From assembly GCA_022842995.1 (NCBI GenBank), contig JALHOM010000004.1, positions 28,927 through 78,662 of the forward strand: a stretch of DNA of 49,736 nt, given 5' to 3'. Below the pieces are notes generated by a model that was not told the DNA's origin, ran no database searches, and saw only the letters and a list, made by a program, of their open reading frames with translations. Origin of the DNA: Candidatus Saccharimonadota bacterium (GTDB taxonomy: Bacteria; Patescibacteriota; Saccharimonadia; Saccharimonadales; 2-12-FULL-41-12). Shown here piece by piece: positions 27,739-29,347 of the stretch. Both the position numbers and the translations under genes were made by a program. Every line of letters starts with the position of its first letter. The stretch's first letter is position 1.

Positions 27739-27781
27739 TTTTGCAAGGATAAACCCTGTTGCAGGGTTTATCCTTGCAAAA
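27739..27781. repeat. left-end palindrome of the RAYT element
   Basis: Perfect 20-bp arms with a 3-nt loop TTG, ending 3 nt before the transposase stop codon region. Confidence 0.8.
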
Positions 27782-27783
27782 TG

Positions 27784-28413
27784 CTAATGGTCGGCGAGGG
27801 TGTATTTCAGTTCTTTTAGTTCGGCCCTTGCTGACTCATAGTCTTTAACGAAGTTTTGATAGTTTTTTTCGTTGTTGTCGTGCAAAAGCATGATTTTGTC
27901 TGGGTGAAGCCACTCTGCGCTTCTTTTCCGCAGGAAGTGGAGGTAGCTGGAATAAGGATAATCTTCAAACGGCATACCTATATCCTGAGGATTTAGATGG
28001 ATGTACCGGCTGATATGGATGAGATAAGAGTCATCAAGGATTGGGCTGGCTTTATATGTACCCTGAAAGAGTGTGCCTTTCCTGTTATATTTGCGGTTGA
28101 AATACATGCTGTAGGCTGTCATTACGCTTCGCATGACGGCAGGCAAACCCTCGTCTGTGAGGGTGTAGATAAGTAAATGGAAATGGTTTGGCATGAGGCA
28201 GTAAGCCAAAACTTCGACTTGATCGTATAGATGAACTGCTTGTCTGCCGAAGCGGTCCACAGCCGGTTCTGGGGATAGATGTCTTCTGAGTAAAGACAGA
28301 AAAGTCGCATAATCTTGGCTATCGATGAATATTGATCGTTTATCTACTCCACGGTTGAAGACATGGTAGTAGTTATCTCGAATAGGTGTCTTGACGATGT
28401 ATTTACTAGGCAT
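27784..28413 (-). CDS. REP-associated tyrosine transposase (Y1 / IS200-like)
   Basis: 209 aa from MPSKYIVK. Y1 transposases are HUH single-strand nucleases that cut at hairpins. Motifs are YYHVFNRGVDKRSIF near the N-terminus, the HUH metal site PNHFHLLIY (about 95-103), and a helix with candidate catalytic Tyr in TAYSMYFNRKYNRKGTLFQG, then YIHLNPQDIG. The length fits the RAYT/TnpA_REP group. The upstream in-frame extension to 28464 is rejected because it translates the palindrome. The ATG sits at the inner edge of the right palindrome. Confidence 0.92.
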   Translation of the reverse strand: MPSKYIVKTPIRDNYYHVFNRGVDKRSIFIDSQDYATFLSLLRRHLSPEPAVDRFGRQAVHLYDQVEVLAYCLMPNHFHLLIYTLTDEGLPAVMRSVMTAYSMYFNRKYNRKGTLFQGTYKASPILDDSYLIHISRYIHLNPQDIGMPFEDYPYSSYLHFLRKRSAEWLHPDKIMLLHDNNEKNYQNFVKDYESARAELKELKYTLADH

Positions 28414-28451
28414 TGCAGGGTTCTTCCTTGCAACAAGGATAAACCCTGCAA
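28413..28451. repeat. right-end palindrome of the RAYT element
   Basis: 18-bp arms with two mismatches and a CAA loop. It overlaps the transposase start codon, so the end hairpin could also affect expression. Confidence 0.75.
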
Positions 28452-28516
28452 AAGTAGAGTGCAAGCAGTAGCGGAACAGGGGTAGGAGATTTTATGGTTA
28501 ATTAGACGGATTTTTG

Positions 28517-28586
28517 ACATTCACCACTGTATTTTGTCTTGAAATAAGGTATAATATGGGTAATATTTCGGTCTCATCGTCTAACG
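28517..28586 (+). repeat. duplicate of the tRNA-Glu promoter and tRNA 5' end
   Basis: 70 nt essentially identical to 28710-28779. It includes the TATAAT and the first 17 nt of tRNA-Glu, after which it jumps to TGAGATC, the 3' acceptor strand of the same tRNA. The result is a promoter driving a deleted mini-tRNA. Confidence 0.85.
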
Positions 28587-28709
28587 TGAGATCCGCCAGT
28601 TGGCGGATCGCAAGGTCGGAAACCTGGCTCGCGAATGCGACCAAGTTGAGACGGGGTCGACCGCAATTTCAAAGAAATTGACGGGTGACTAGGACACCAG
28701 GCTGTCCTA
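28587..28709 (+). repeat. hairpins and internal tRNA-Glu fragment
   Basis: It contains the palindrome GATCCGCC-AG-TTGGCGGATC (28590-28609), a CAATTTC-AAA-GAAATTG hairpin, and TAGGACACCAGG, which is the D-arm/anticodon-stem part of tRNA-Glu. No intact tRNA can be folded. Confidence 0.65.
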
Positions 28710-28742
28710 ACATTCACCACTGTATTTTGTCTTGAAATAAGG

Positions 28743-28748
28743 TATAAT
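28743..28748 (+). promoter_or_regulatory. -10 box of tRNA-Glu
   Basis: TATAAT, 14 nt upstream of the mature tRNA. The same spacing occurs at tRNA-Arg. Confidence 0.6.
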
Positions 28749-28762
28749 ATGGGTAATATTTC

Positions 28763-28837
28763 GGTCTCATCGTCTAACGGTTAGGACACCAGGTTTTCAT
28801 CCTGGCAATCGGAGTTCGATTCTCCGTGAGATCACCA
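28763..28837 (+). tRNA. tRNA-Glu (anticodon UUC)
   Basis: The acceptor GGTCTCA pairs with TGAGATC with one G-U. The D-arm is GTCTAACGGTTAGGAC. The anticodon arm is CCAGG-TTTTCAT-CCTGG with UUC. The T-arm contains GGAG-TTCGATTC-TCC. The encoded CCA ends at 28837. It is the only intact tRNA in a cluster of its own fragments. Confidence 0.95.
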
Positions 28838-28874
28838 TGAAAAGAGCTCAGTCATTTGACTGGGCTTTTTTCAT
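28837..28874 (+). terminator. terminator of tRNA-Glu
   Basis: ATGAAAA...TTTTTTCAT with inner CAGTC/GACTG. The last A of the tRNA CCA is in the stem. Confidence 0.8.
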
Positions 28875-28891
28875 GCTTTTCATCAGAGGAG

Positions 28892-28911
28892 ATCGAACTC
28901 CGATTGCCAGG
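28892..28911 (-). repeat. inverted 20-nt copy of tRNA-Glu T-arm and anticodon stem
   Basis: Exact reverse complement of 28801-28820 inside tRNA-Glu. Read-through RNA could pair with the tRNA precursor across the terminator. Confidence 0.9.
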
Positions 28912-29029
28912 GCACCGTGAGGTGGGGCAATCGTGAGTACGACAACAAGTCACACGCGCAGATGCTTGCATCGAGCATGTGACGCAGTTTCCAATTAACT
29001 TGTTTAATTGATTCTCCGTGAGATCACCA
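28912..29029 (+). repeat. hairpin string ending in tRNA-Glu 3' end, fragment 2
   Basis: It includes CACC-GTGA-GGTG, GATGC-TT-GCATC and a CAATTAA/TTTAATTG stem, then 20 nt (29010-29029) identical to the tRNA-Glu 3' end including CCA. Confidence 0.8.
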
Positions 29030-29068
29030 ACCTAAAACACCCACATTTTGTGGGTGTTTTAGGTTGGT
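29026..29068 (+). terminator. terminator after tRNA-Glu 3' fragment 2
   Basis: A perfect 19-bp stem (29026-29044 with 29050-29068) starts with the fragment's ACCA. The sequence differs from the tRNA-Glu terminator, so it was not simply copied. Confidence 0.8.
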
Positions 29069-29191
29069 TGAATCCCGTAGGGATTCAGAACTCCGCAGGA
29101 GTTCGTTCATGAGGAGCTCTCGCATCCGCCAGTTGGCGGAGAGAAAGTGACGAAATGGTTGACTTTAGTCAACGGATTCGTGAGATCACCA
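29069..29191 (+). repeat. degenerate inverted T-arm, hairpins and tRNA-Glu 3' fragment 3
   Basis: Small hairpins follow one another: AATCCC-GTA-GGGATT, GAACTCC-GCA-GGAGTTC, TCCGCCAG/TTGGCGGA (29125-29140) and GTTGACT-TT-AGTCAAC. The segment ends in CGTGAGATCACCA (29179-29191), the tRNA-Glu 3' end with a 3-nt deletion just upstream. Confidence 0.7.
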
Positions 29192-29228
29192 AAACAATAG
29201 CCCCACTTCTGTGGGGTTTTTTTTGGTG
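29187..29228 (+). terminator. terminator after tRNA-Glu 3' fragment 3
   Basis: CACCAAAA ... TTTTTTTTGGTG with inner CCCCAC-TTCT-GTGGGG. The tRNA CACCA again forms the stem base. Confidence 0.75.
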
Positions 29229-29347
29229 GTTCGCCAGCTGGCGAACGAATCGAACTCTAGTTCGAAGATCAAAGTCACGCACAGGAATTTATTCCGAGCA
29301 TGACTGCAGATCGCAAGGCTTCAGCCTTATTCTCCGTGAGATCACCA
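29229..29347 (+). repeat. inverted T-arm, hairpins and tRNA-Glu 3' fragment 4
   Basis: Starts with the perfect palindrome GTTCGCCAG/CTGGCGAAC (29229-29246), then GAATCGAACTC (29247-29257), an exact inverted copy of the tRNA-Glu T-loop, then TCGAACT-CT-AGTTCGA, GGAAT-TT-ATTCC and AAGGCT-TC-AGCCTT, and ends with 19 nt of the tRNA 3' end (29329-29347). The terminator that follows is imperfect and merges into the next gene's promoter. Confidence 0.75.

Follow-up and report, generated by a model that had tools for sequence, protein, structure and literature searches.

Traces of a possible small mobile element in partial copies of tRNA genes of Saccharibacteria

Features of the tRNA-Glu locus

The window, i.e. 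the whole stretch of DNA analyzed (49,736 nucleotides from a Candidatus Saccharimonadota bacterium), contains an intact tRNA-Glu gene that is followed by three modules and preceded by a partial copy of itself (Table 1). An earlier note on this DNA had proposed that the 3′ end of the tRNA recurs three times downstream, and this was borne out by exact matches of 20, 13, and 19 nt at spacings of 192, 162, and 156 nt. These matches are far beyond chance. The longest match to tRNA-Glu or its complement was 20 nt at the locus and at most 11 nt in the rest of the window, and 300 random sequences gave matches of no more than 10 nt (direct) or 14 nt (inverted). The inverted copies of the T-arm were recovered as well, exact over 20 nt in module 1 and 11 nt in module 3, and the degenerate copy suspected in module 2 was located as a short segment paired with a sense counterpart. 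Small hairpins lie between the inverted T-arm and the tRNA 3′ end in each module, and the span of module 1 (28892-29029) has a fold z-score of −3.1. A homologue of module 2 is present behind a second tRNA-Glu gene (L009). The CCA tail was said to form the base of each terminator stem; this holds for the three terminators of Table 1, but the "imperfect" last terminator of the note is unsupported, because the terminator scan found none past 29347.

The upstream side of the gene had been overlooked. Here, promoter and tRNA positions 1-17 are duplicated over 70 nt without mismatch, with promoter-like hexamers at 28539 and 28732. The older copy is interrupted in its D-loop by a structured insert (R1 match at 28585-28682, 33.2 bits, E = 1.9 × 10−6 by cmsearch; fold z = −4.6), which replaces GT in TAACG[GT]TAGG and, judged by eye, obeys the two-base rule described below.

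Table 1. Positions of features at the tRNA-Glu locus, numbered from the first letter of the window
Feature	Position	Strand	Basis
RAYT-type Y1 (HUH) transposase gene	27784..28464, likely ATG 28412	−	PF01797, NF047646
Older copy of promoter and tRNA-Glu positions 1-17	28517..28586	+	70-nt exact duplicate of 28710-28779
Structured insert in D-loop of upstream tRNA-Glu copy (R1 family, A2-like variant)	28587..28689	+	cmsearch, fold
tRNA positions 20-31 (TAGGACACCAGG), then inverted copy CTGTCCTAAC; fold-back at truncated end	28690..28711	+	sequence, repeat
Promoter and 5′ part of intact tRNA-Glu gene	28710..28779	+	duplicate of 28517-28586
Intact tRNA-Glu (TTC)	28763..28837	+	ARAGORN, Rfam
Terminator 1	28836..28875	+	RNA fold, terminator scan
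Module 1: inverted copy of tRNA-Glu 39-58 (20/20)	28892..28911	−	repeat match
Module 1: sense GGCAATCG	28926-28933	+	sequence
Module 1: form-B insert with preceding sense segment	28926..29009, core 28955-28979	+	sequence, alignment
Module 1: copy of tRNA-Glu 3′ end (56-75), 20 nt exact	29010..29029	+	sequence match
Terminator 2	29027..29068	+	RNA fold
Module 2: perfect hairpin of inverted GAACTCC (29088-29094) and sense GGAGTTC (29098-29104)	29088..29104		sequence, fold
Module 2: form-B insert	29105..29178, core 29118-29147	+	alignment, fold
Module 2: copy of tRNA-Glu 3′ end (63-75), 13 nt	29179..29191	+	sequence match
Terminator 3	29189..29228	+	RNA fold, terminator scan
Module 3: inverted copy of tRNA-Glu 50-60 (11/11)	29247..29257	−	repeat match
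Module 3: sense remnant and form-B insert	29258..29328, core 29278-29302	+	alignment, fold
Module 3: copy of tRNA-Glu 3′ end (57-75), 19 nt	29329..29347	+	sequence match

A structured insert family

The inserts fall into two types. The main one (type A) is about 91 nt long and made up of three hairpins with unpaired, conserved linkers (GUGA, GCAAG, and GG). In an alignment of 43 inserts, 97.1% of cells in the stems were paired and 25 of 30 base pairs showed double changes; the covariation score was 0.54, compared with 0.18 for shuffled alignments and less than 0.10 for slid structures. By covariation, the insert is a new structured family, to which the upstream element of tRNA-Glu belongs (R1 match, E = 1.9 × 10−6). 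Since G-U cells (about 73) far outnumber A-C cells (2) in the stems, the strand that folds is the tRNA-sense strand, which fits RNA and single-stranded DNA alike. A search against Rfam 15 at gathering and relaxed thresholds returned only tRNA, RNase P, and weak matches to miRNA-like hairpins; resemblance to twister-sister, hammerhead, HDV-like, or group I or II RNAs found no support in Rfam.

The second type, form B, has a conserved core (CGCA-hairpin-GAG(C/A)A) and occupies the three downstream modules of tRNA-Glu as well as other tRNAs of the source genome and of relatives. It is defined from 12 aligned sequences; the tests of covariation, spread, and two-base replacement cover type A. In the same window, a tRNA-Arg gene (109-185) carries type-A inserts on both flanks: one at 263-353 downstream (109 bits), and one at 1-63 upstream, where a tandem array of promoter-tRNA-insert units, each of 190 bp and nearly identical to the others, comes to its end.

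Layout of the copies around tRNA genes

Most tRNA genes of the source genome (1.11 Mb) turned out to have the same layout: 3′ fragments some 140-190 nt behind the gene, 5′ fragments ahead of it, or both. Downstream, the intact tRNA and the terminator are followed by an antisense arm, a sense arm that starts at about position 43, the insert, and tRNA sequence from position 57 to CCA. Upstream, it is promoter, tRNA 5′ part, insert, short sense segment, antisense segment, promoter, and intact tRNA. Taken together, both plans place the insert inside a partial tRNA copy that adjoins an intact tRNA. Upstream partial copies carry a promoter and downstream ones a terminator, and at some tRNA loci identical units stand in tandem.

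Behind module-bearing tRNAs, the terminator is followed by an inverted copy of the tRNA's own 3′ half. This copy spans the point at which the insert interrupts the partial copy, and was therefore made from the intact sequence. This copy and the sense arm make up a hairpin adjacent to the insert. The own tRNA was the best match of the antisense arm at 16 of 27 loci with an insert, compared with 5 of 22 others; on reading the sequences, most of these five also carry modules that the simple pattern had missed. The idea that tRNAs in general have an antisense arm was mostly rejected, as own-tRNA matches occur mainly where a module follows.

Two further patterns were seen upstream of tRNAs. An approximate leader of the form AAGAGCAG, hairpin, CGATGAGAAAAACC, hairpin, GGTTTGTCTCAT recurs before tRNA-Asn (L030), tRNA-Ala GGC (L029), and at L153, L202, L205, and L256; possibly, it represents another structured RNA family. 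In upstream modules of tRNA-Gln, tRNA-Leu, and tRNA-Pro (L024, L040, L046, L147), an antisense T-arm (TTCGAACC/TTGAACC) lies within the promoter region of the next copy, where it may serve as a −35-like box.

Distribution and linkage to tRNA genes

In the order Saccharimonadales, model searches, from which all insert counts derive, found the insert in 70 of 149 genomes, with up to 30 copies per genome. In a phylum-wide sample of 287 genomes, matches were confined to members of this order, and the named insert-bearing relatives are nearly all Candidatus Saccharibacteria. As the insert recurs in these 70 genomes, one of them complete in a single contig, the locus is not an assembly artefact, a possibility that the earlier note had raised. 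No match was obtained in viral (IMG/VR, exact patterns), phage, or plasmid collections.

The association with tRNA genes is close: 50 of 58 copies sampled from relatives lay less than 300 bp from a tRNA, all 50 on its strand (31 downstream and 19 upstream), and the remainder were mostly at contig edges or second copies farther from the tRNA. The complete genome G040 contains at least 14 inserts. Of the 14 listed, 12 lie no more than 200 bp away from a tRNA and share its strand, and the other two sit in orphan tRNA remnants of the same plan. Tandem identical units probably break short-read assemblies, so that copy numbers would be underestimated. Inserts are often found at contig ends in many relatives (e.g. 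G127:C4:50, G086:C3:78, G078:C37:4373, and G016:C12:19072).

A two-base insertion rule

For fitting, the insert ends were fixed at TGA... and ...GAC, and the flanks were compared with the neighboring intact tRNA, with a loss of 0-7 bases permitted. Exactly two tRNA bases were missing in each of the 47 clean fits, and the preceding base was always G; the value of two hinges on where the insert ends are placed, whereas its constancy does not. A further 58 copies with diverged flanks or nested inserts fell below the fit threshold and are not among the 47. The replaced bases (bracketed) lie in (i) the T-loop, GG[TT]CGA; (ii) the D-loop, CAAGTG[GT]AAGG; (iii) the D/anticodon junction, TAGAG[CG]CTTCC; (iv) the anticodon arm, CAACGG[GT]TCTGG; and (v) the anticodon loop, CTGGGG[GC]CGTG and CTTAGG[AA]CTAG. 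Sites outside the T-arm account for 6 of the 47 fits. Inserts also occur nested within inserts at a GGGTCG site, which resembles the GGTTCG of the T-loop.

Spread, turnover, and probable order of addition

Relationships among 90 inserts from eight genomes were compared with 2000 shuffles, the own locus being excluded. The nearest relative was in the same genome for 47 inserts (shuffle mean 14.8, maximum 33), a within-genome spread that gene conversion between inserts could mimic. It was at the same tRNA anticodon for only 3 inserts (shuffles 3.1, i.e. chance), on which grounds vertical, tRNA-specific orthology was rejected. Near-identical inserts can sit in copies of distinct tRNAs, and on opposite sides.

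Occupancy changes between close relatives. Two genomes of one genus, G071 and G078, carry inserts at mostly different tRNAs. The tRNA-Pro(TGG) gene was compared among five species belonging to one genus: two modules follow it in G086, just a form-B-like one in G127, and none in G104; with one shared neighbor gene in this comparison (G086, G104, G127, G135, and G147), no empty site with both flanks conserved was found. At tRNA-Pro of G078, the distal unit is closer than the proximal one to the single unit of G071 (score 69.5 versus 35.5) and has the terminator in common with it (85% versus 74%). This points to proximal addition of units with their own terminator, and the proximal unit appears to be the newer one.

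At tRNA-Met of G047 (L205), a 1.1-kb segment with a 205-aa membrane-like ORF stands between two near-identical copies of terminator and module, as if a gene-carrying circle had integrated; G016 has a single terminator-module copy at this tRNA.

Candidate machinery

The transposase gene of the window (PF01797, E = 3.6 × 10−10; NF047646, E = 6.2 × 10−12, below its cut-off) adjoins the upstream element of tRNA-Glu. It is bounded by nearly identical palindromes of its own (27739-27781 and 28413-28451), with which it forms a mobile-looking unit itself. In G037, too, tRNA-Glu has a RAYT gene as its neighbor, and four further Y1-like genes were noted elsewhere in the source genome. RAYT/Y1 genes were detected in 34 of 70 insert-bearing and 8-11 of 79 other genomes (p ~ 10−6, uncorrected for kinship), and none was detectable in the complete genome G040 with its at least 14 inserts. 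R1 had no match at most RAYT loci, and the palindromes flanking RAYT genes differ from the insert, on which grounds these genes were rejected as its source, though the co-occurrence stands. Reverse transcriptases were equally considered and showed no association: RVT_1 was present in 13 of 70 carriers and 17 of 79 non-carriers (p = 0.69), and G000 has no reverse transcriptase. A RAYT/Y1 HUH protein is the only candidate mobilizer with support. No autonomous copy of the insert element was found.

Interpretation

We favor the reading, with a probability of about 0.55, that the modules were left behind by a non-autonomous, tRNA gene-targeting mobile element of Saccharibacteria. Its mobile part would be the compact structured insert, whose three hairpins surround a junction that a tRNA stem closes. 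The insert would enter a tRNA loop after a G and swap out exactly two bases; new copies would arise by insertion rather than gene conversion, presumably through an enzyme acting in trans. With every insertion seen, the other part of the tRNA gene (promoter and 5′ part, or 3′ part and terminator) is present as a local copy, and this duplication may be part of the event itself. Owing to it, an intact tRNA would stay in place with the disrupted copy upstream or downstream, and the element could be tolerated because the intact tRNA is kept. The antisense segment would be the scar of a copying step, an inverted copy of an arm of the intact tRNA. Behind tRNA-Glu, the element probably inserted three times in succession, with the newest module closest to the tRNA. 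Of this picture, the fold, the placement in tRNA loops, the strand, the spread within genomes, the two-base replacement, and the turnover are shown by the data above.

Among the three origins that the earlier note had offered, a mobile element using tRNA ends comes closest. Spread within genomes and turnover agree with it; the mobile part is a folded loop insert, and use is made not only of tRNA 3′ ends but also of 5′ parts and of D- and anticodon loops. Fold-back copying at the terminator captures the antisense segments, which continue from the terminator palindrome, mainly where a module follows, but leaves the insert unexplained. An RNA family with a tRNA-like 3′ end was right in that a new structured family exists, although its body is the insert and not the tRNA end.

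An unlikely alternative is a functional RNA, in which insert-bearing copies would regulate the neighboring tRNA. Base pairing of the antisense arm is possible either with the intact tRNA or with the sense arm next to it, and the insert would serve as a switch or protein-binding aptamer. The strong covariation, the conserved unpaired junction bases, the fixed strand, the match of the antisense arm to its own tRNA and sense arm, and the exact tRNA ends in the modules all speak for this reading. It accords poorly with an order of which about half of the genomes lack the insert, with the chance-level tRNA-specific orthology (3/90), and with the different tRNAs occupied within one genus. Moreover, modules stand behind terminators or ahead of the tRNA's own promoter, and nested, tandem, and orphan copies exist.

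Quite improbable is an origin without transposition, by template switching at hairpins during replication, local fold-back duplication, and homogenization of inserts by gene conversion. While this would account for the sense-antisense-sense pattern around terminator palindromes, for antisense arms copied from the intact tRNA, and for tandem identical units, it provides no source of the same 91-nt insert at new tRNAs, and leaves unaccounted for both the constant two-base replacement at several places in the tRNA and the different tRNAs occupied in genomes of the same genus. A regulatory RNA and a purely replicative origin are possible readings, but a mobile element agrees better with the turnover and the insertion rule. 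Very unlikely, finally, are site-specific recombination cassettes, small circles integrated by a recombinase at tRNA T-loops with the insert as folded recombination site, as in integron arrays: proximal addition, unit-specific terminators, and the tRNA-Met segment of G047 (two near-identical copies, compared with one in G016) speak for them, and against them stand units that apart from this segment lack genes and stem from the tRNA at the site, the loss rather than conservation of two bases, the lack of a linked recombinase among our findings, and D- and anticodon-loop sites without T-loop sequence.

A bolder reading, which we regard as speculative and rather unlikely, is that the insert moves by itself, as mobile RNA or as a hairpin element of single-stranded DNA, entering exposed loops of tRNAs at the level of the nucleic acid by two-base exchange and being copied back into the chromosome beside the parental gene. 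It would then be a minimal bacterial parasite of tRNA genes without coding capacity, with a mechanism not yet described.

Significance and comparison with known systems

Few sites in genomes are as conserved, or as often targeted, as tRNA genes. The genomes of Saccharibacteria are very small, and nonetheless up to 30 copies of the element are present in a genome of 1.1 Mb. The element appears to be a tiny mobile one, of a kind not yet described and specialized on tRNA genes; no published description was found in a search whose scope excluded most subscription papers and preprints. If confirmed, it would stand as a class of its own among mobile or selfish structured elements, and its insertion rule (G, then two replaced bases) points to specific enzyme or ribozyme chemistry. 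For annotation, the tRNA fragments around these genes should be taken neither for introns nor for random pseudogenes. Some Saccharibacteria are cultured, so that movement, expression, and enzyme are directly testable.

Several known systems share traits with the element. REP/BIME sequences with RAYT (TnpA_REP) proteins are likewise short non-coding hairpin repeats that spread within genomes through a protein in trans, and here a RAYT gene lies beside the locus and RAYTs co-occur with inserts, though none was detectable in G040. The inserts differ from them in being 91-nt multi-hairpin structures found only in tRNA copies, in one orientation, and with two-base replacement, and the RAYT genes here have their own, different palindromes. 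Integrative elements with tyrosine integrases also use tRNA loops or arms as sites, restore an intact tRNA, and duplicate a tRNA end. The units described here, however, measure about 160-190 bp and have no room for an integrase gene; they use 5′ parts and D- and anticodon loops as well, add an inverted arm, and lose two bases (47/47). Group I introns are mobile structured RNAs within tRNA loops, but the insert is too short for a group I core and has no Rfam match, and its host copy is an incomplete tRNA next to an intact one. Integron arrays (attI/attC) resemble the modules in growing at a fixed proximal site and in having a folded structure at the unit boundary; nearly all units here are without genes, though, and an attC core was not recognized by eye. 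Eukaryotic tRNA-derived SINEs, too, are non-autonomous and combine a tRNA-derived part with an unrelated body. In contrast to SINEs, the insert was not seen away from tRNA sequence and has no association with reverse transcriptase; it is the body that moves, and the tRNA part is local.
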